Assembly: GCA_011033025.1 (NCBI GenBank)
Contig: WFMF01000039.1
Location: 248,001 to 312,000 of the forward strand
Direction of reading: 5' to 3'
Length of the DNA stretch: 64,000 nt
Origin: Beroe forskalii
Taxonomy: Eukaryota > Ctenophora > Nuda > Beroida > Beroidae
The notes under the pieces are model-generated. The model was not told the DNA's origin. It did no database searches and saw nothing but the letters and a program-made list of their open reading frames with translations. The position numbers and the translations under genes are program-made. Positions 28,511 to 61,999 of the stretch are shown in pieces. How positions within the stretch are numbered: position 1 is the stretch's first letter; the number at the start of each line of letters is the position of its first letter.

Positions 28511-29263
28511 TGGCGGGCAAACACGGCAAATAATTCGGAGATTTGATTAATAAAAACAAGAGATGCGGGGGTCAAACCCAGCAGAAACACGTATATATTC
28601 CAACTGAAGTAATCTGAAACCCGCGAAACATACAAAATAATCAGCTCCGGGCCAAACTCTAAGCTCGCAAGTGCGAAATATATGCAACATATATAATATT
28701 TTGTAGTGTACATGGGAGTGAATTAATTGATAATGTATGTAGGAGGTCGGGGTGCCCCTTTGTGGTATGTGCACCACTGATAATTGCAAAAATTTAATTG
28801 GAGACAAAGAGAAGGAACGTATGTTTGGCTCAGCGTCAAAAAGATTTCAAGGGTTGCAGGAGATGAACTCAGAAGTTAAGATTTTTATTCGAGTGGTTCG
28901 AAGTGTTTATAGCATTTGGCTGCTCCTCGTGCAATAATCAAAATAATTTGCCCTCGGCTTCTCCTCGCCTCGTGTAATCATTTCAACAATCGCACTTCCA
29001 GTAATCCTATTATACTGAACAAGATACATTTGATACAACTTGAAACTTCAGGGGTTACATAGTTGGAACGGAACACATAGAAATTAAAACATATCAATTT
29101 GTATGAGTGCTTCGAGAGTGCTTCGCCTGAGTGACCCGGTAACACTCTACCACCGTTACAGTTGCACTTGTGACACGCGCCCTTAATTCTACTGTGGTTC
29201 CAGACGGAAAATAGGCGGTCGAGAGCGACGTCATTATCAGTGTTTAGAATAGCCAATTGATGA
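28511..29263. repeat. Segmental duplication, copy 1
   Basis: Matches 30571-31306 nearly base for base with small indels, from tggcgggcaaacacggcaaa to the half palindromic element ending ttgatga. No coding potential is recognised. Because it flanks a nonsense homopolymer block, haplotype duplication in the assembly is as likely as a real duplication. Confidence 0.9.
29208..29263. mobile_element. CRE-bearing palindromic element, left-truncated pair member
   Basis: aaaataggcggtc, then cgacgtcattatcag and tttagaatag, ending ttgatga. It marks the right edge of the duplicated segment. Confidence 0.6.
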
Positions 29264-29867: not shown

Positions 29868-30535
29868 AAAAAAAAACCCAAAAAAAAAAAAAAAATTCCC
29901 CCTTTTTTTTTTTTTTCCCTTTTTTTTAAAAAAAACCCCCCCCCAAAAAAAAGGGGGAAAAACCCCAAAAAAAAAAATAATTGGGAAATTTTTAAAAAAA
30001 AAAAGAGATGGGGGCCCCCCCCAAAAAAAATTTTCCCTTTAAATTAAAAAAAAACCCAAAAAAAAAAAATAACCCCCCCCCCGGGGAAGTGCAAAAAAAA
30101 AAAAAAATTTTTTTTTTTGGGGAAGGGGGGGGTTTTTTTGGGGGGGGGGTTTTTTTTTTTTCCCCCCCTTTTTTAAAAAAAAAGGGGGGAAAAAAAAGGA
30201 ACTTTTTCCCGGAAAAAAAGGGGGGGGCCCCAAAAAAATTTTTTTTTTTTTTTTAAAATTTTTCCCTTTTTTTAAAATAAAAAAATTTTTCCCCCCCCCC
30301 TTTTTTTTTAAAAAAAACCCCCCAAATTTTATTTTAAAAAGTTTTTTTTTTTTGGGGGAAAAAAAAAAAAAAAAAAAATTTTGGGGGGGGTTTTTTTCCC
30401 CCCCCAATTTTTGGGGGCCCCTTTAAAGGGTTTTTGGGGGTTTTAAAAGGGGGGGAAAGGGGTTTTAAAATTTTAAATTTTTTTTTAAATTTTCCCCCCC
30501 CAAAAAAAAAAGGGGAGGGGGGGGAAAAAAAAACC
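29545..30535. other. Homopolymer-run block, probable sequencing/assembly artefact
   Basis: About 1 kb made almost wholly of runs of A, T, C or G (many of 8 to more than 30 bases) with hardly any mixed sequence. It lies between two copies of the same ~750-bp segment. No genomic process I know gives this texture; it looks like uncorrected low-quality consensus. Open frames rich in F, K and G here are meaningless. Confidence 0.85.
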
Positions 30536-30570
30536 CTTTATGCACCCCGTATGAAGCAGTGAGTTCGAGC

Positions 30571-31306
30571 TGGCGGGCAAACACGGCAAATAATTCGGAG
30601 ATTTGATTAATAAAAACAAGAGATGCGGGGTCAAACCCAGCAGAAACACGTATATATTCCAAGTGAAGTAATCTGAAACCCACGAAACATATAAAATAAT
30701 CAGCTCCGGGCCAAACTCTAAGCTCGCAAGTGCAAAATATATGCAACATATATATTTTGTGGTGTACATGGGAGTGAATTAATTGATAATGAATGTAGGA
30801 GGACGTGGGGTCCCTTTGTGGTATGTGCACCACTGATAATTGCAAAAATTTAATTGGAGACAAAGAGAAGGAACGTATGTTTGGCTCGGCGTCAAAAAGA
30901 TTTCAAGGGTTGCAGGAGACGAACTCAGAAGTTAAGATTTTTATTCGAGTGGTTCGAAGTGTTTATAGCATTCGGCTGCTCTTCGTGCAATAATCAAAAT
31001 GATTTGTCCTCGGCTTCTCCTCGTGTAATCATTTCAACAATCGCACTTCCAGTAATCCTATTATACTGAACATGATACATTTGATACAACTTAAGGGGTT
31101 ATATAGTTGGAACGGAACACATAGAAATTAGAACATATCAATTTGTAAGAGTGCTCCGAGAGTGCTTCGCCTGAGTGACCCGGTAACACTCTACCACCGT
31201 TACAGTTGCACTTGTGACACGCGCACTTGATTCTACTGTGGTTCCAGACGGGAAATAGGCGATCGAGAGTGACGTCATTATCAGGGTTTAGAATAGTAAA
31301 TTGATG
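30571..31306. repeat. Segmental duplication, copy 2
   Basis: Second copy of 28511-29263, slightly shorter because of small deletions. It begins soon after the homopolymer block and ends in the same half palindromic element. Confidence 0.9.
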
Positions 31307-43722: not shown

Positions 43723-45735
43723 GTATAAAACTGCATCATTATTCGGTTCTAGTGCACTCTCTGCAATGCAGTCACATGGGAAAAATCAGTTTAACACCAT
43801 ATTATTGGTCTTTTTGGCCAATTATGGACAAAAAAGTCCTTTTTAGCCCCAAAATGGGTGTTTTTAAGAGGCTGTAAATCCTGAAAATGGACGAAATTCA
43901 AAATTCTGAAAGCAGAATTTTCTTAGTTGGATCAAACTGTACTGACCTGCAAAATTTCATGAGTTAACTAGTAAGTTTAGTAGGACGACCCCCCCCCCCC
44001 CAGGAGAAACTGATTAACATTCAGAAAAAACTCTGACACAATTGGACTTGGGGAAAACTCTGTGTATAAATGCATCATTAATTGGTTCTAGTACACTCCC
44101 TGGAAGGCAGTCACATGGGGAAATAGCAGTTTTCAGCTTTATTTTTGGTCCTTGTGGACAATTATAGACAAAGAAGTCCATTTTAGGCCAAAAATGGGGT
44201 TTTTAAGAGGCTGTTAATCTTGAAAATGGACGAAATTAAAAATTCTGAAAGCAGAGTTTTCTTAGTTGGATCAAACTGTACTGACCTGCAAAATTTCATG
44301 AGTTAACTAGTAAGTTTAGTAGGACGACCCCCCCCCCCCCAGGAGAAACTGATTAACATTCAGAAAATACTCTGACACAATTGGACTTGGGGAAAACTCA
44401 GTGTATAAATGCATCATTATTTGGTTCTAGTACACTCCCTGAATGGCAGTCACATGGAAAAAAACAGTTTTACGCCATATTTTTGGTCTTTTTGGCCAAT
44501 TATGGACAAAAAAGTCCATTTTAGGCCAAAAATGGGATTTTTAAGAGGCTGTAAATCCTGAAAATGGCTGAAGTTCAAAATTCTGAAAGCAGCATTTTCT
44601 TAGTTGGATCAAACTGTACTGACAAGCAAAATTTCATGAGTTAACTAGTAAGTTTAGTAGGACGACCCCCCCCCCCCCAGGAGAAACTGATTAACATTCA
44701 GAAAAAACTCTGACACAATTGGACTTGGGGAAAACTCTGTGTATAAATGCATCATTATTTGGTTCTAGTACACTCCCTGAATGGCAGTCACATGGGGAGA
44801 AAACAGTTTAACGCCATATTTTTGGTCTTTTTGGCCAATTATGGACAAAAAAGTCCATTTGAGGCCAAAAATGGGGTTTTTAAGAGGCTGTAAATCCTGA
44901 AAATGGCCGAAATTCAAAATTCTGAAAGCAGCATTTTCTTAGTTGGATCAAACTGTACTGACCTGCAAAATTTCATGAGTTAACTAGTAAGTTTAGTAGG
45001 ACGACCCCCCCCCCCAGGAGAAACTGATTAAAATTCAGAAAATACTCTGACACAATTGGACTTGGGGAAAACTCTGTGTATAAATGCATCATTATTTGGT
45101 TCTAGTACACTCCCTGAATGGCAGTCACATGGGGAGAAAACAGTTTAACGCCATATTTTTGGTCTTTTTGGCCAATTATGGACAAAAAAGTCCATTTTAG
45201 GCCAAAAATGGGGTTTTAAGAGGCTGTAAATCCTGAAAATGGACGAAATTCAAAATTCTGAAAGCAGAATTTTCTTAGTTGGATCAAACTGTACTGACCT
45301 GCAAAATTTCATGAGTTAACTAGTAAGTTTAGTAGGACGACCCCCCCCCCCCCAGGAGAAACTGATTAACATTCAGAAAAAACTCTGACACAATTGGACT
45401 TGGGGAAAACTCTGTGTATAAATGCATCATTATTTGGTTCTAGTACACTCCCTGAATGGCAGTCACATGGGAAATAGCAGTTTTCAGCCTTATTTTTGGT
45501 CCCTGTGGACAATTATAGACAAAAAAGTCCATTTTAGGCCAAAAATGGGGTTTTTAAGAGGCTGTAAATCCTGAAAATGGCTGAAGTTCAAAATTCTGAA
45601 AGCATTTTTCTTAGTTGGATCAAACTGTACTGACATGCAAAATTTCATGAGTTAACTAGTAAGTTTAGTAGGACGACTGATTAAAATTCAGAAAATACTC
45701 TACCCAATTGAACTTGGGGAAAATCTGTACAAAAG
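43723..45735 (+). repeat. 338-bp satellite, about six units, with C-tracts
   Basis: Units recur every 335-340 bp, as shown by aggacgacccccc at about 43982, 44321, 44658, 44998 and 45333, and a last unit at about 45670 that lacks the C-tract. Each unit also contains gcatcattatttggttctag, a pair of ggccaattatggacaaaaaa and ccaaaaatgggg phrases, and ttcatgagttaactagtaag. The C-tract is about 11-14 bases. Unit-to-unit divergence is low. No coding potential. Confidence 0.93.
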
Positions 45736-46482: not shown

Positions 46483-48718
46483 TCATCTGATCCGTTCTAT
46501 AGATACAAACCCTATCTCGACCCCTGGGCCTGGCCCCACTAGACATGCGATGTCTTTAGAGTCAGTGTCCCTGAAGACCCTCTCCAAGACAAAGAGTAGG
46601 GTGGCTGAGACCAGGTTACCCTTCTCCCTCATGACTTGAAAGGAGTGTCGGAGACTGTGAGGGCTGAGGGGTGGGGATAGCAGCGTGAAGGTTTCCAGGA
46701 TAGCTGGGATAGAGGAGTTAGAGTTGAGAGGATGACTTGATGAGTGTAAAGAGTTAGATACTCTACGATTTGAGAAAAGCCTTAAACTCTTGAAAACATT
46801 TAATTCGAAGTCTGAAGATTATGCAGCCATCACTAATTACAATTTCTACCAAATTATGCGTGGACAAGGCCATTTGTTAAGGGCGTATTTGTCATCTGAT
46901 CCATTCAACAGCAAACTAAAACAGAGCATCTATCACCTTTGCCTCCCGGATGAATAACCCACTCGACCCCCTCCACACCTCTCATCACCTCCCCTCCTTC
47001 CCTATTTCCACTCTCCGGTATCAGGGTCTTGAGAATACCCGGCCATCTGCTGCTAAGTTCCCGATACAGAGTGGGAACCAGGTCTTTTGAGAGGTTCAGG
47101 TAGTAGCCTGAATCTGAGAGCTGAAGGGGAATTGGAGTAGTAACACCAAAGAATTGGAGTGTGATTTTAAACCCCTTCATCGCCATCAACTTATCAAAAG
47201 TTTTCGAAGCGGTTCAAGGAATAGGCGTTGAAATTGAGCATCATGAATGCATCTTATGGTTAATCATGAGTACCTTCATATCTATGTAGTTGGAAGTCTC
47301 CATGTCCAGCAACTGACACTGCGGCTCATCAATCCGCCAGGACCCAGGCTCCCTCTTGTTGGTTATGATCATAGCCCCCGCTCCATCCCCAAACAGTAGA
47401 TTTGGGAGGATATCCTCCATTTCAACACCAGGCACCGTGTTCAGATGGGGACTTGCACAGTCTGCAAATGTTTGGGGTGGTCAAATGAGTCAAAGGGCCA
47501 TCTGCCAGCCATTTGGGTGTTAGATAAGTAAGTTGGTTCAGGTAGGCAAGTTCGCTAGCTTACGCCAGCCATGGCCCCGTTTTTTAGCCATAAGCTGGCC
47601 AATCATAGCCATAAGTTGGCCGTTGGGATTTCTTAGAGCTACATTCGATGAAATTTTTCTGCTCTCTACAACGTTTTAACTCACCAACTGTCACGACCAG
47701 GATACAGGCTGCTCTTCCAGCAAGGATGACAGACCGGGCCACATCCAAACACGAGATAGCTCCCCCACACCCAGTGTTGTCCAGGGAGTAGTTACACCTG
47801 ACGTTGAGAAGTGTGAGTTCTCAGTAATTAGTAAGTGGTTACTGATTGAATTGGGGATTTCTATCGAGTCATATAGTGGCTGAGATTTTGTCATTGTGTT
47901 AAGATTGCGGCGTGCCGCGAGGGTTCAGAAACCTGATTATGATAGGTCGTTGACCATAACTTATCGCCGATTATTGAAAAATTGACGAGAAAATGGTGAG
48001 CGAGCTGTCGCAATGAGGTTCCTTAGTACCTGACGCTGAGGTTGAGTTGCTGAGGCAGCCAGGTGCTGAGGTTAGGCAGCATGACCCCAGTAGAAGTGTT
48101 GGTGATAACGCAGTCTATGTCGGATGGAGGAGTGTTGCTTCTCGTGATAACTCCCTCTGCTGCCCTCACACTCAGCTCCTGCGAGTTTTAGTGTGGGTCA
48201 ATGGGGTGAATAGCATTTAATTCGTAGCTTCAATTAAGTAAGCTGAAAGTAAAATGCATGGCCTAAAAAGCACGAGGCCCGTCACTGTAGCCTTAAATTG
48301 GAACCCCATCAGGCCGTCCACTATTGCAAAAACGAGCAAACTCAGTCAACTCAGGGACCGACTCATTGCATTACTCAACCTCGTATTTAGATCTCTTTAG
48401 ACTTACCTTAGCCGCCCTCTCCCACACTACAGCCCTGTCTCCCATTGAAGGTCTGAAAGGTTCTGGGGCACCTCTAAAGAGGTTGGTAGCATCTGGGTAT
48501 CCTTCTGACCCTGATCCGGCGTCTACTTTCTCCCAGAACTGGTCAAAATTGACACAAGTCGGCCTGCTTTCGATCTTCATTGAGGCTATGATCTTCTGGA
48601 TTTTCTTAACTTTTTCTTCTGAGTATTCGAAGTTGGGAAGACTGTAGAGGTTCATCAGCTGCTTCGAGGAGACCTGGAATTCTGGAAATGCACAGAACAC
48701 TTCTTTGATGAACGCCAT
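46483..48718 (-). CDS. Type III polyketide synthase (chalcone synthase-like)
   Basis: Six exons join in phase: 48718-48407, 48178-48030, 47797-47685, 47461-47274, 47120-46937 and 46703-46483 (TGA). All introns are GT-AG and 153-233 bp long. The 388-residue product has the usual length for this homodimeric ketosynthase family, which condenses malonyl-CoA units onto a CoA-linked starter. The catalytic Cys is residue 164 in NTGCGGAIS, His311 is in VEWVIHPGG and Asn345 is in EKGNLVSATLLFVL. LFGDGAGAMII (215-225) and the C-terminal loop VGPGPGVEIGF match the family's LFGDGA and GFGPG motifs. Start: ATG after a short AT-rich leader, with no signal peptide, so cytosolic. The substrate cannot be read from sequence. 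Residue numbering follows plant chalcone synthase closely at the Cys; the sequence otherwise looks remote from plant enzymes. Spliceosomal introns rule out a bacterial contaminant. Confidence 0.94.
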
Positions 48719-49235: not shown

Positions 49236-50290
49236 CAGCGAACCTCAACCACTTCAACCAGGGTGGATTCTGGGTTGGGACAGTGAACCAGGATGGACTC
49301 TGGGTTGAAGACATGGAACCAGGGTGGACTCTGAGTTGGGACAGTGAACCAGGGTTGACTCTGGGTTGGGGACAGCGAACCAGGGTGGACTCTGGGTAGG
49401 GGACAGTGACCCAGGGTGGACTCTGGGTTGGGGACAGTGAACCAGGGTGGACTCTGGGTTGGGGACAGTGAACCAGGGTGGATTCTGGGTTGGGGACAGT
49501 GAACCAGGGTGGACTCTGGGTTGGGGGCAGTGAACCAGGGTGGACTCTGGGTTGGGGGCAGTGAACCAGGGTGGAGCTCTGGGTTGGGGACAGTGAACCA
49601 GGGTGGTCACTGGGTTGGGGACAGTGTACCAGGGTGGAGCTCTGGGTTGGGGACAGTGTACCAGGGTGGAGCTCTGGTTTGGGGACAGTGAACCAGGGTG
49701 GTCACTGGGTTGGGGACAGTGAACCAGGGTGGACTCTGGGTTGGGGACAGCGAATCAGGGTGGACTCTGGGTTGGGTACAGTGAACCAGGGTGGACTCTG
49801 GGTTGGGTACAGTGAACCAGGGTGGACTCTGGGTTGGGAACAGTGAACCAGGACTCTGGGTTGGGTACAGCGAATCAGGGTGGACTCTCACTCTGGGTTG
49901 GGGACAGTGAACCAGGGTGGACTCTGGGTTGGGGACAGGGGACTAGGGTGTACTCTGGGTTTCGACGGGCGATGTCCGAATGTGGAACGTTGCGCCGCGC
50001 GCGCGAGGGTAGGGTAACATCCTACGATCTGGGTTGGGAATTGTAGGATGTTACCCTACCCGCCGCGCACACAACGTTTTCCGCGGCGACCCTCCTAATT
50101 TCCGAGTGTTGCGCGCTAGGGATGGGAGAAATCCATCAAGATTGGGAACAGTGAACCAGGGTGGACTCTGGGTTGGGGACAGTGAACTTAGGTGGACTCT
50201 GAGTTGGGAGAAGTGAACCAGGGTGGACTCTGGGTTGGGTTCATGAGAGAACCAGGGTGGACTCTGGGTTGGGGACAGTGACTGTGAACC
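49236..50290 (+). repeat. 31-bp minisatellite, main block
   Basis: More than 25 units of ggttggggacagtgaaccag ggtggactctg. Variants of 30-31 bp include ggagctctg and ggtcactg for the last part. The array is interrupted at 49968-50137 by a GC-rich hairpin. Long open frames on both strands (GWTLGWGQ-like and SLSPTQSPPWF-like) are by-products of the repeat. Confidence 0.95.
49985..50080. repeat. GC-rich hairpin inside the minisatellite
   Basis: gaacgttgcgccgcgcgcgc plus gagggtagggtaacatcctac faces gtaggatgttaccctaccc plus gccgcgcacacaacgtt. The ~17-bp loop is itself a piece of minisatellite unit (ctgggttggga), so the arms appear to flank array DNA. Confidence 0.7.
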
Positions 50291-50857: not shown

Positions 50858-51090
50858 CAGGGTGGATTCTGGGTTGGGGACAGCAAACTTAGGTGGTCTC
50901 TGGGTTGGGAAAAGTAAACCTGTGTGGACTCTGGGTTGGGGAGAGTGAACCAAGGTGGACTCTGGGTTGGGTTAAGTGAACCAGGGTGGACTCTGGGTTG
51001 GGGATAGAGAGAACCATGCCAGGGCCGGGTGGACTTTGGGGACAGTGAACCAAGGAGGACTCTGGGTTGGGTTAAGTGAACCAGGGTGGC
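50858..51090 (+). repeat. 31-bp minisatellite, second block
   Basis: About seven more degenerate units of the same 31-bp repeat, separated from the main block by about 560 bp of unrelated sequence (50300-50850). That spacer holds no recognisable gene; it has a CCAAT motif near 50702. Confidence 0.85.
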
Positions 51091-53811: not shown

Positions 53812-54689
53812 TATTAATACTTAGGTACCAGTTCCCCAGTACTAAAGTAGGAACAGCTATTTTATGATATATGATGCTCATAATATGCTTTGAGTGCAGT
53901 GCTCCATCGGTATCCTTAAACTCTTAAAAGTTAAAAGCTTAAATCCTGACACATACGATCGCGCGGAAAATCATCGCGCAAATAACGGACGTACAATTTT
54001 TCGTGCGATCATTTCGCATTTTATTTTTAGTACCTAATTCCTAAAAACTCATCCAACCAAGGAGGGAACCAAGGAGGAAGTAAAATGATTTGCAATGGGA
54101 ACCCACGTGCTGCAATGGGAACCCACGTGCTGCAATGGGAACCCACGTGACCGCAATTATCCCGCTCCAGCCTAAGCAACGTCACGTGACTACCACGTTA
54201 CCGCGCGCATATCATGTAAACATGCGGCACGCAGGTCACGTGACCGCGCTTGATATTCGATACACCTCGGGGAAGAGCGGTGCAATGTTATTGTATGATA
54301 CACCTAGCATGTAGGATATAGAGTGATGGGGTGCAATGTAAACCTATGATATATTATATATCTATGTAAATACAGTGTATCGGAATGTGAGTGCAATGTA
54401 AACGTATGTTACACTTACACTGAACATGTCGGTTGATACACAGGAGCGCTCAGCCTTTGCAGTTTTACAGAAAAGTGTGCAACAAGCGTACGATGGAGAC
54501 TGTAGTAAAACAGTAAAGTAATGAATAAATTTAAATGTCAAGAAGTATTACAAGGAAATTTCATTCATTGAAAGACATTCCGACCTCCTCAACTGTCAAA
54601 TTGTTTAGTGTACGTGCATGTTTTATAGTAGGTAAGTACTAGGTACCTATAGTTTACGTTCACTCTAGTCGAAGCAGCGGGGAACGGAC

Positions 54690-57665
54690 ATTTCATCTCT
54701 CGACACTTCATCTCACGACATTTCATCTCGCGACATTTCATCTCCGACACTTCATCTCAAAGTACGACATTTCATCCCCAGGGTTTTTGAAGTACGACGT
54801 TTCATCTCCAGGGTGCGACGTTTCATCTCAAAGGGTACGACACTTCATCTCCTACTGTAATTTGATTGTACTATAAAGTACGACATTTCATCTCCAGGGT
54901 GCGACGTTTCATCTCAAAAGGTACGGCACTTCATCTCCTACTGTAATTTGATTGTACTATGAAGTACGACATTTCATCTCCAGAGTGCGACGTTTCATCT
55001 CAAAAGGGTACGACACTTCATCTCTAACTGTAACTTGATTGCACTGTAAGGTGCTACATTTCATCTCAGGGTACGACACTTCATCTCAGACTGCGACATT
55101 TCATCTTAGGGTAATGACACTTCATCTCAGGTTACGACACTTCATCTCAGGTACGACACTTCATCTCAGACTGCGACACTTCATCTCAGACTGCGACACT
55201 TCATCTCAGACTGCGACACTTCATCTCAGAGTACGACACTTCATCTCAGGGTACGACACTTCATCTCAGGGTACGACACTTCATCTCAGACTGCGACATT
55301 TCATCTTAGGGACGACACTACATCTCAGGGTACGACACTTCATCTCAGGTTAGAGAGCAAGTTAAAACGTTTAAATGATACGATAAACTTTAAATCAGGA
55401 GCTTTCGAAAATCATGTGATTATCGTCGTCAGCTGAAGATGGAAGGTGAGGATGCTTCATCTCAGGGTACGACACTTCATCTCAGACTGCGATACTTCAT
55501 CTAGGGTACGACACTTCATCTCAGACAGCGACACTTCCTCTCAGACTGCGAAACTTCATCTTTGGGTGCAACATTTCATCTCAGGCTACATTACTTCATC
55601 TAAGGGTACGACACTTCATCTCAGACTGCGACGCTTCATCTCCAGGGTACCTACAACACTTCATCTCAGGGTACGACACTTCATCTCAGGGTACGACACA
55701 CTTCATCTCCAGGGTTCGACACTTCATTTCAGGGGTACCCTAAGATGAAGTGTCATACCCTGAGATGAAGTGTCGCAGTCTGAGATGAAGTGTTGCACTT
55801 GAGATGAAGTGTCGCAATCCAAGATGAGTCACTTATCTCGTGACTGCATACACTTCATTCTGGGTGCGACATTTCATCTTAGGTACCACACACTTCATCT
55901 TAGCTTAGGTACGACACTTCATCTCAGGGTACGACACTTCATCTCAGGTTTCGACACTTCATTTCAGGGTACCCTAAGATGAAGTGGCTCATACCCTGAG
56001 ATGAAGTGTCACGTAGTCTGAGATGAAATGTCGCACCCAGGAGATGAAGTGTCGCAGTCTGGAGATGAAGGTCGTACCCTGAGATGAAGTGTCGCAGTCT
56101 GGATATGAGTTACTCTATCTCAGACTGCGACACTTCATCTCTGGGTGCTACCATCTTAGGGTACCACACTTCATCTTAGCTTAGGGTACGACACTTCATC
56201 TCAGGGTACGACACTTCATCTTAAGTTCGACACTTCATTTCAGGGTACCCTAGTGTCATACCCTGAGATGAAGTGTCGCAGTCTGAGATGAAATGTCGCA
56301 CCCAGAGATGAAGGTCGCAGTCTGAGATGAAGTGTCATACCCTGAGATGAAGTGTCGCAGTCTTTGAGATAAGTCACTATCTCAGACTGCGACACTTCAT
56401 CTTGGTGACATTTCATCTTAGGGTACCACACTTCATCTTAGCTTAGGGTACGATATCTTCATCTCAGGGTACCACACTTCATTGAAGTGTCGTACCCCTG
56501 ATGAAGTGTCAAAAATCTTAAAATGAAAATCGCAGTCTGAGATGAAGTGTCGCAGTCTGGAGATGAAGTGTCCTTACCCTGAGATGAAATGACGAAATGT
56601 CGCACTTTTTTCAATGCAATCAAGTTACAGTTAAAGATGAAGTGTCGTACGCTTTGAGATGAAACGTCGCACTCTGGAGATGAAACGTCGTACTTCAAAA
56701 AAACCCCTGGAGATGAAATGTCGTACTTTGAGATGAATTGTCGCAGTCTGAGATGAAATGTCTCACCCAGAGGGAAGTGTCGTAGCCTGAGATGAAGTGT
56801 CGCAGTCTGAGATGAAGTGTGTCATTCTGAGATGAAGTGTTATACCCTGAGATGAAGTGCTGCAGTCTGAGATGAAGTGTTTGTACCCTGAGATTAGGTG
56901 TCGTACCCTGAGATGAAGTGTCGTACCCTGAGATGAAGTGTCGCAGTCTGAGATGAAATGTCGCACCCAGAGATGAAGTGTCGTAGCCCGAAATGAAATG
57001 TCGTACCCTGAGATGAAATGTCGTACCCAGAGATGAAGTGTCGCAGTCTGAGATGAAGTGTCGTACCCTGAGATGAAGTGTCGTAGCCTGAGATGAAATG
57101 TTGCACCCAGAGATGAAATGTCGCAGTCTTAGATGAAGTGTCGTACATAGAGATGAAGTGTCGCAGTCTGAGATGAAGTGTCGTACCCTGAGATGAAATG
57201 TCGCAGTCTGAGATGAAATGTCGCACCCAGAGATGAAGTGTCGTAGCCTGAGATGAAATGTCGTACCCTGAGATGAAATGTCGTACCATGAGATGAAGTG
57301 TTGCAGTCTGAGATGAAGTGTCGTACCCTGAGATGAAGTGTCGTAGCCTGAGATGAAATGTTGCACCCAAAGATGAAGTGTCGCAGTCTGAGATAAAATG
57401 TTATACCCAGACATGAAATGACGTACCCAGAGATGAAATGACGTACCCAGAGATGAATTGTCGCAGTCTGAGATGTAGTGTTGCAGTTTGAGATGAAATG
57501 TCGTACGTAGAGATGAAATGTCGTACCCGGAGATGAAGTGTCGTACCCTGAGATGAAACGTCGCACCCTGGAGATGAAACGTCGTACTTCAAAAAACCCT
57601 GGGGATGAAATGTCACTTTGAGATGAAGTGTCAGAGATGAAATGTCGTGATGAAGTGTCGGGAGA
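54690..57665. repeat. ~20-bp array (CACTTCATCTCAGGGTACGA) with orientation switches
   Basis: More than 100 variants of cacttcatctcagggtacga or catttcatctcagactgcga. Units read forward from 54690 to about 55735, then switch strand repeatedly to about 56480, then read in reverse to 57665. The outermost units on both sides are a longer ~110-bp form containing ctactgtaatttgattgtac. All open frames here (HLRLRHFIS-like) are repeat artefacts. Confidence 0.95.
55738..56480. repeat. Three ~240-bp palindromic higher-order units
   Basis: Each unit starts near ggggtaccctaagatgaagt, runs through reverse-oriented repeats to a turning point near tatctcagactgcgacac, then forward through cacttcatcttagcttaggg back to ttcatttcagggtaccc. 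Units lie at about 55738-55973, 55975-56249 and 56250-56480. Confidence 0.75.
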
Positions 57666-58083
57666 TGAAATGTCCGTTCCCCGCTGGTTCGACTAGAGTG
57701 AACGTAAATTATAGGTACCTAGTACCTACCTACTATAAAACATGCACGTACACTAAACAATTTGGCTATATACTGGGTGAACTGCAGTTCATATGAAGTC
57801 GCCGCGCACTTCATATGAATTCATATGAATTCATATGAGTTCATTTGAATGCGTTTACCAGTTCAATAAATTTTTATATGAATGAACTTCATATGAACTT
57901 CATGTGAATTCACATGAACTTCATATGAACTTCATGAACTTCATATGAACTTCATGTGAATTCATATGAATTCATTAAACACGGATGAACTAGTTCACCA
58001 AAATTTAGTGAACTGAGATGCATATGAATTCATATGAACTCATATGCATTCCAGTTCGCCTTGAATTCATATGAACTAGGAGT

Positions 58084-58769: not shown

Positions 58770-59515
58770 ACGACCTCTCAGTGACTCGACGACTCAAATC
58801 GACTCGATGCCTCAACTCGACGACTTGATTTGACGACTCTCTGACTTGTCTCGACGACTCGTCTCAACGACTCGACTCGACGACTCGACTCGACTCGACG
58901 ACTCGACTCGACAACTCGACTCGACGACTCGACTCGACGACTCGACTCGACGACTCGACTCGACAACTCGACTCAACGACTCGACTCGACGACTTGACTC
59001 GACGACTCGACGACTCGACGACTCGACGACTCGACGACTCGACTCGACGGCGACTCGACGACTCGACTCGACGACTTGACTCGACGACTCGATCGATGAC
59101 TCGACGACTCGACGACTCGACGGACGACTCGACTCGACTCGACAACTCGACTCGACGACTCGACGACTCGACGACTCGACTCGACTCCAGTCGTCGAGTT
59201 GTCGAGTCGAGTCGTCGAGTCGAGTCGAGTCGAGTCGCTAGTCGTCTAGTTGAGTCGTCGAGTTGTTGAGTCGAGTCGTTGAGTCGAGTCGTCGAGGTGT
59301 CGAGTCGAGTCGAGTCGTCGAGTTGAGTCGTCGAGTCGAGTCGTCGAGTCGTCGAGTCGAGTCGAGTCGAGTCGTCGAGTCGAGTCGAGTCGTCGAGTCG
59401 AGTCGTCGAGTCGAGTCGTCGAGTCGAGTCGTCGAGTCGAGTCGTCAAGTCGAGTCGTCGAGTCGAGTCGTCGAGTCGAGTCAAGTCATGAAGTCCAGCC
59501 ATTGAGTCAAGTCAT
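58770..59515. repeat. CGACT array forming a giant inverted repeat
   Basis: Tandem cgactcgactcgacgactcg on the left half turns at about 59188 into tcgagtcgtcgagtcgagtc on the right half, giving arms of roughly 370 bp. Protein-like frames of Ser/Arg or Asp/Ser/Thr/Arg are artefacts. Confidence 0.93.
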
Positions 59516-61414: not shown

Positions 61415-61581
61415 CCCAGGTATCTGAAACAAATCGATGAATCATTGACATCAAATTATCAAAATAACAGTTGTCTTTCTGACTGCATTTTTACACTAAT
61501 TATAAAATTGCAGTCAGAACGACAACTGTTATTTTGATAATTTGATGTCAATGATTCATCGATTTGTTTCAGATACCTGGG
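61415..61581. repeat. 72-bp-arm hairpin spanning a 3' splice site
   Basis: The arms 61415-61486 and 61510-61581 are reverse complements with one mismatch and a ~23-nt loop. The right arm ends in ttgtttcag plus the first nine bases of the lectin-like exon. Confidence 0.9.
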
Positions 61582-61971
61582 CAAAGTTTGGGGGACTTAC
61601 AGCTACAATGAAAAACACCTTTTTATTCGACGATCCATTTCCTGCAAGTAATCTCGTGGATGGGAACTATAACAATTTCGCTCATACAAGAGATTCAGAG
61701 ACGGGTCTATGGTTAAGAGTCGAGTTGGAGAGATCTGCAAATATCAGATTGATTGTGATATATAACCGGCTGGCTTGTTGCCAAGATAGGATAGTAGGAC
61801 TTTCAGTGTTTATCAAAGAAGACGAAACTACCGTGCATAATTGTGGAGAAATCACAGAAGTGAAGAAAAAGTACGAAATAGAATGTTTTGGGAGAGGGAA
61901 TATCGTGGAGCTCAGTAAGGAAGGAGATGTTATAATGCAATCCATCGCTGAGATAGAAGTATTTGGGAACG
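61573..61971 (+). CDS. F5/8C / F-type-lectin-like domain exon
   Basis: A 399-nt exon, acceptor tttgtttcag, donor GGTACAT, phase 1 at both ends as in shuffled extracellular modules. The 133 residues make one domain: SNLVDGNYNN, FAHT, LWLRVEL, then IYNRLACCQDRIVGLSVF and finally AEIEVFG. The His, the Arg of YNR, the vicinal Cys pair and the later Arg match the fucose-binding pattern of F-type lectins. However, the Asp of R-x-D is Ala, so fucose binding is doubtful. Probably secreted or on the cell surface. The rest of the gene (signal peptide, other domains) was not found. A hAT element sits 28 bp after the donor, in the following intron. Confidence 0.8.
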
Positions 61972-61999
61972 GTACATCTTTCTTTCTAACTTTCTAAAC

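Follow-up and report, generated by a model that had tools for sequence, protein, structure and literature searches.

A complete, intron-bearing type III polyketide synthase-like gene with a divergent active site in the ctenophore Beroe forskalii

Type III polyketide synthases (PKSs) are mainly enzymes of plants, fungi and microbes; they occur in several eukaryotes and, to our knowledge, are almost unknown in animals. Does the genome of the ctenophore Beroe forskalii carry an intact gene of this kind and, if so, where did it come from and what may its enzyme do? We examined a window of 64,000 nt (the whole stretch of contig WFMF01000039.1 that was analyzed; all coordinates below are positions in it), for which a preliminary description had proposed that an apparent animal genome holds a complete type III PKS gene with introns. 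That proposal was borne out by the gene model, the Pfam domains and a ctenophore as the only named close relative. We consider it probable that the gene at this locus, on the minus strand, is intact and encodes a single-domain, coenzyme A (CoA)-dependent ketosynthase of the type III PKS kind, with the mechanism and origin proposed below; likely, it is an orthologue of the Mnemiopsis leidyi gene ML18354a, reported to derive from a bacterium.

The gene was rebuilt from the raw sequence and runs from the start codon at 48718 to the end of the stop codon at 46483, with six exons encoding 388 residues. The six phase-consistent exons, the protein length, Cys164, His311, Asn345 and the GPGPG segment of the preliminary description were reproduced exactly. 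All five introns have the form GT...AG, with phases 0, 2, 1, 0 and 1. When the protein P0001 of the ctenophore Bolinopsis microptera was compared with the window by tblastn, it gave five collinear pieces of 72-116 bits each that jointly span all six exons. In a control with shuffled windows, any match at E ≤ 1 was found in 11 of 60 shuffles and the top score was 26.2 bits; the gene model is therefore not a product of chance. The joined protein also aligns end to end with the Bolinopsis protein. By these sequence comparisons, the gene appears intact and complete.

Exon 1 (48407..48718) carries the start codon and codons 1-104 and ends at the donor GTAAGTCT; the P0001 tblastn match over it covers 48718-48386. 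Exon 2 (48030..48178), also matched by tblastn, follows the acceptor TCGCAG and ends in phase 2 at the donor GTACTAAG. The codon of the catalytic Cys164, aligned to C164 of chalcone synthase (CHS), is at 47769-47767 in exon 3 (47685..47797), which ends in phase 1 at the donor GTGAGTTA. Exon 4 (47274..47461, phase 0 at its end) encodes the LFGDGAG motif, at the position of Phe215 of CHS. Exon 5 (46937..47120) encodes the HPGGK motif and the catalytic His311 (codon 46952-46950), and exon 6 (46483..46703) the catalytic Asn345 (codon 46617-46615), the GPGPG loop at residues 372-376 and the stop codon. Two oddities set the window protein apart from its relatives: exon 5 encodes about 10 added residues, and the alignment has a gap of one residue where exons 2 and 3 meet.

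To which enzyme family does the protein belong? Residues C164, H311 and N345 align with C164, H303 and N336 of CHS, so the catalytic triad claimed at the outset is intact, and Cys-His-Asn is found in all 55 rows of the alignment. Pfam gave matches to Chal_sti_synt_C (49 bits) and Chal_sti_synt_N (39.6 bits), each against a curated cut-off of 27, and to FAE1_CUT1_RppA (42.9 bits) and ACP_syn_III (43 bits), both above cut-off. Among PDB sequences, the best 60 of 123 matches of the window protein were type III PKSs. A structure model of the Bolinopsis relative P0001, predicted from a 31-row alignment, had a pLDDT (predicted local distance difference test) of 88.3 and a pTM (predicted template modelling score) of 0.90, and in two structure comparisons the best 50 rows of each were type III PKSs by description. 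The model, which is that of the relative and not of the window protein, thus predicts a type III PKS fold. Taken together, the protein appears to have the build of a type III PKS and would work as one, forming a divergent branch.

The domain matches bear on a different assignment, in which the protein, rather than extending polyketides, would be a one-step ketoacyl synthase of fatty-acid or acyl-CoA metabolism, stemming from a branch that lies between FabH and type III PKSs. We regard this as rather unlikely. It gains from NCBIfam beta-ketoacyl-ACP synthase III models, which match the window protein at up to 60.6 bits; the fabH model itself gave 56.5 bits, short of its cut-off of 292.1, and no NCBIfam family scored above cut-off for this protein. 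Against it, the Chal_sti_synt_C cut-off was passed by the window protein and by all four full-length clade relatives scanned (which also passed that of Chal_sti_synt_N), and the one FabH control scanned, P0158, had no Chal_sti_synt_C match. The FabH C-terminal domain PF08541 was matched in the FabH control and in all five other type III proteins scanned, and is absent from the clade; the fold matches of the predicted model likewise point to type III PKSs. The best NCBIfam score (77.5 bits, cut-off 425) was to NF042429, DpgA (3,5-dihydroxyphenylacetyl-CoA synthase). We rejected DpgA as the closest family: the five other type III PKSs scanned all score higher on this model, at 143-192 bits, which marks the match as a generic one.

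Next, we examined how the relatives are distributed. The protein search covered about 5.8 billion proteins, and 2900 candidates were scored. The best match was P0001, the B. microptera protein LOC134822070, full-length with 59% identity (E value of 5e-148) and located on a contig of 18.3 Mb. Other close matches were P0002-P0006 at 52-61% identity and the partial proteins P0128-P0130 at 45-56%. Among the matches listed (the best 120 of 5082 in one search and 81 in another), those from outside this clade that cover most of the protein had approximately 20-31% identity, and outside matches of higher identity (e.g., P0158 at 40%) span only about one third of the protein or less. Judged from these matches, the window most likely consists of ctenophore DNA.

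Some of these relatives touch on the intron structure. P0005 opens with an unrelated MTPHPL and is homologous from the exon 2/3 junction of the window gene onward, as fits a gene call beginning inside an intron; judged from sequence, this start point is a hint at a shared position of intron 2. Two partial clade members can be read without a break where the window gene has introns: P0128 (191 aa, from contigs of up to 1.4 Mb) at introns 3-5 and P0130 (178 aa, from contigs of up to 24 kb) at introns 4-5. They are either gene calls that were spliced or copies lacking those introns.

A member of this ctenophore family has been reported before. Hernandez and Ryan (2018, PMC6005172) described ML18354a of Mnemiopsis leidyi as a "putative chalcone and stilbene synthase" of bacterial origin and unknown donor lineage; it has five introns, and BLAST gave no animal match for it at E ≤ 0.1. 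Its expression spikes at 9-12 h, during tentacle morphogenesis, and each transfer reported for Mnemiopsis was recovered from the transcriptome of one or more further ctenophores (PMC6005172). Like the window gene, ML18354a belongs to a ctenophore, has five introns and carries chalcone/stilbene synthase, ACP synthase III and FAE1/type III PKS Pfam domains (PMC6005172). By kinds of domain, number of introns and a full-length match in a ctenophore, the window gene is likely an orthologue of ML18354a. The discovery of the gene family is accordingly not new, having been reported in 2018 (PMC6005172), and the window gene is a further member. Apart from that paper, the literature search, judged by its listings, found nothing on a ctenophore type III PKS-like gene and no report of clade-specific active-site changes. 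This work adds an exact gene model from a further genome, shows the clade to be isolated, gives evidence against shared ancestry with the few eukaryotic enzymes sampled, and describes the clade-specific active-site changes.

Could the gene have entered the assembly as a contaminant from a fungus, an alga, a bacterium or prey? The identity ceiling of about 31% among listed outside-clade matches covering most of the protein speaks against this. So do the five GT-AG introns, the location of the closest named relative on an 18 Mb Bolinopsis contig and the recurrence of every reported transfer in one or more further ctenophore transcriptomes (PMC6005172). We consider contamination highly improbable.

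To place the clade among known ketosynthases, we built trees from several row sets. For the first tree the best 80 loci were kept and reduced to 35 by a 60% identity filter; with 15 P-numbered proteins, four PDB rows and the query this made 55 rows. The P0001-like rows formed one clade (support 100) on a very long stem of 4.05 changes per column; the stem measured 1.85, 1.88 and 2.83 in sets of 40, 41 and 32 rows, respectively, and the clade was isolated (100/100). In the 40-row tree, built with 23 type III and 12 FabH rows, the type III rows grouped without the clade at 98/91. The 41-row tree (28 type III and 8 FabH rows) differed by the addition of nine plasmid-borne type III rows, a reduction of FabH from 12 to 8 rows and the removal of L011, L017, P0131 and P0132; with this change, support for type III without the clade went from 98/91 to 77/83, a weak outside placement.

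The outside placement is what the one-step synthase would lead one to expect. Against it, both FabH-containing runs are flagged for a possible long-branch join between FabH and the clade, and by path the closest rows from outside the clade are type III PKSs (L028 in the 40-row tree and L015 in the 41-row tree). The clade may lie inside type III PKSs or beside them. Membership in FabH itself was rejected: the FabH rows grouped without the clade at 100/99 (40 rows) and 100/100 (41 rows), and the clade is not nested among them.

The same row sets bear on origin. An ancient retention, in which the gene came down vertically from an early eukaryote and other animals lost it, would agree with the general occurrence of type III PKSs in several eukaryotes and with the top PDB match of profile A1, which was Dictyostelium Steely1 at 264 bits (A1 includes microbial rows too). 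Against retention, a constraint joining the clade with Steely1, two plant enzymes and P0007 cost 15.8 log-likelihood units in the 41-row set (approximately unbiased (AU) test, p 0.0152) and 10.2 units in a 32-row set without FabH and PhlD (AU p 0.0221), the AU-test groups having been picked after a first tree. A grouping of the clade with PhlD (AU p 0.279, 41 rows) was neither rejected nor supported. Since the join with Steely1, the plant enzymes and P0007 is disfavored, acquisition is favored over retention on sequence evidence, in line with the bacterial origin given to ML18354a in PMC6005172, and we judge retention improbable. The preliminary description had left acquisition and retention side by side; the AU results narrow this in favor of acquisition, within a sample holding four eukaryote-type rows. 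The protein search and tree that it had suggested gave a ctenophore as the nearest named match and an isolated clade, in trees with no fungal, algal, choanoflagellate or DpgA row. In the preferred history, the gene would have been acquired once and long ago, probably from a bacterium, and would then have gained introns and diverged strongly.

How far has the active site departed from that of other type III PKSs? Residues were counted in CHS numbering in seven clade rows (two of them partial) and 48 other rows, mostly bacterial; the alfalfa row in the alignment is the G256F mutant. Together with the placement of the clade outside the type III rows (98/91 and 77/83), several of these residues weigh against a polyketide-making enzyme. 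Position 192 is Asp in all seven clade rows and Glu in all 48 others, a contrast that also favors the one-step synthase; position 338 is Val in 7/7 clade rows and Ser in 46/48 others; position 373 is Pro in 7/7 and Phe in 45/48, so that the clade has GPGPG in place of the GFGPG loop. Position 132 is Ser in all five clade rows with data and also in 3 of the 48 others. Judged by these residues, E192D, S338V and F373P may mean that the chemistry has left polyketide extension. Glu192 and GFGPG are conservation marks of the sampled rows, separate from the catalytic triad. At other positions, residue 165 is Gly in 7/7 clade rows and in none of the 48 others, residue 197 is His in 7/7 and 36/48, and residue 256 is Met (six) or Leu (one) in the clade and Trp (37), Phe (nine) or Leu (two) in the others.

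For the ketosynthase of the type III PKS kind that we favor, we propose the following mechanism. Cys164, with His311 and Asn345, would take the acyl group from a CoA starter, and the acyl group would be extended via decarboxylative condensation with malonyl-CoA. Read against plant enzymes, Val338 and Met/Leu256 would suit a small starter such as acetyl-CoA. As described in PMC6274091, the T197L/G256L/S338I changes turn alfalfa CHS into a 2-pyrone synthase through a smaller cavity, and G256L and S338V occur together in some plant enzymes that start from acetyl-CoA. On the other side, acetyl-primed enzymes such as OKS also yield long chains (PMC6274091). Among the 48 other, mostly bacterial rows, His197 (36 rows) and Trp or Phe256 (37 and nine rows) are the rule; several bacterial matches are named alkylresorcinol or alkylpyrone synthase, and Met or Leu at position 256 is smaller than Trp. 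By this analogy, we regard the small starter as an even call.

As for release, the aldol switch of stilbene synthase consists of Glu192-Thr132-water-Ser338 (PMC6274091). Asp192 and Val338 would break this network, and we infer from these residues that the clade would be without a stilbene-type aldol switch. With the switch broken, lactonization, Claisen closure or simple beta-keto release would be likelier than stilbene-type aldol chemistry.

A broader proposal, which we offer tentatively and hold to be doubtful, is that the clade represents a distinct animal-specific ketosynthase subfamily. It would have kept the type III triad and fold and remodeled its second shell and the network for release (E192D, S338V, F373P, and Met/Leu256 in place of the Trp of most microbial rows), possibly as a deeper branch than the known type III PKSs, and would make a ctenophore-only metabolite at tentacle formation, e.g., for colloblast adhesion or chemical defense. 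A triad-intact enzyme in Bolinopsis and in the genome of the window, with a counterpart expressed at tentacle formation (PMC6005172), implies a small molecule made by the animal. The clade-specific residues provide defined hypotheses on starter and release chemistry.

The surroundings of the gene were also examined. Tandem arrays flank it on both sides. A 338-bp unit is repeated about 5.8 times with 93% matches at 43723-45677, ending approximately 800 bases downstream of the PKS stop codon. On the other side, a 31-bp minisatellite at 49256-49961 lies upstream of the gene, beginning approximately 540 bases from the start codon, recurs at 50142-50281 and 50858-51004, and gives rise to long, probably spurious open reading frames (ORFs) in several frames. 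Farther along, about 3 kb at 54687-57674 is dense in ~20-bp repeats in both orientations; it holds a stop-to-stop ORF of 297 aa, the longest in the window, which is probably no gene. At 58799-59482, a 13-bp unit forms one array, after which a second array carries the unit in reverse-complement form.

In the domain scan, ten exon-like ORFs gave only a cold-shock and an F5/8 C-like domain, and three longer ORFs gave one match below cut-off. The cold-shock domain exon (Pfam CSD, 80.5 bits; Y-box-like by eye) is at 1287-1586 on the minus strand, with coding-like stretches on the same strand nearby. The second is an exon-like ORF at 61506-61994 (plus strand) with a galactose-binding NedA-like domain (F5_F8_type_C_2, 47.6 bits). 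Two minus-strand ORFs at 28550-28846 and 30468-30902 share a near-identical protein stretch and flank a homopolymer-rich region at ~30.0-30.4 kb. No tailoring enzyme was recognized in the 13 ORFs scanned in the window, a scan weakened by introns, and the tRNA scan and Rfam search (gathering score) of the window found none. A search of the species' own genome with Pfam PF00195 gave zero matches; this exon-by-exon method also misses the present PKS gene, so it is uninformative on copies.

Among the known systems compared, LOC134822070 of B. microptera is a candidate full-length orthologue with 62% identity in the alignment (59% by BLASTP, as above) and the clade-diagnostic residues; it differs in being without the ~10-residue insert of exon 5 and in owning a CPC segment that is absent from the window protein. 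Mycobacterial Pks18 and other bacterial type III PKSs resemble the window protein in fold (TMq 0.81, with the predicted P0001 model), triad and motifs, whereas identity is about 20-31% and the clade is set apart by E192D, S338V and F373P. For plant CHS and Gerbera 2-pyrone synthase, identity over the structural alignment is approximately 24%, the AU tests disfavor grouping the clade with them, and alfalfa CHS differs at positions 192, 265, 338 and 373.
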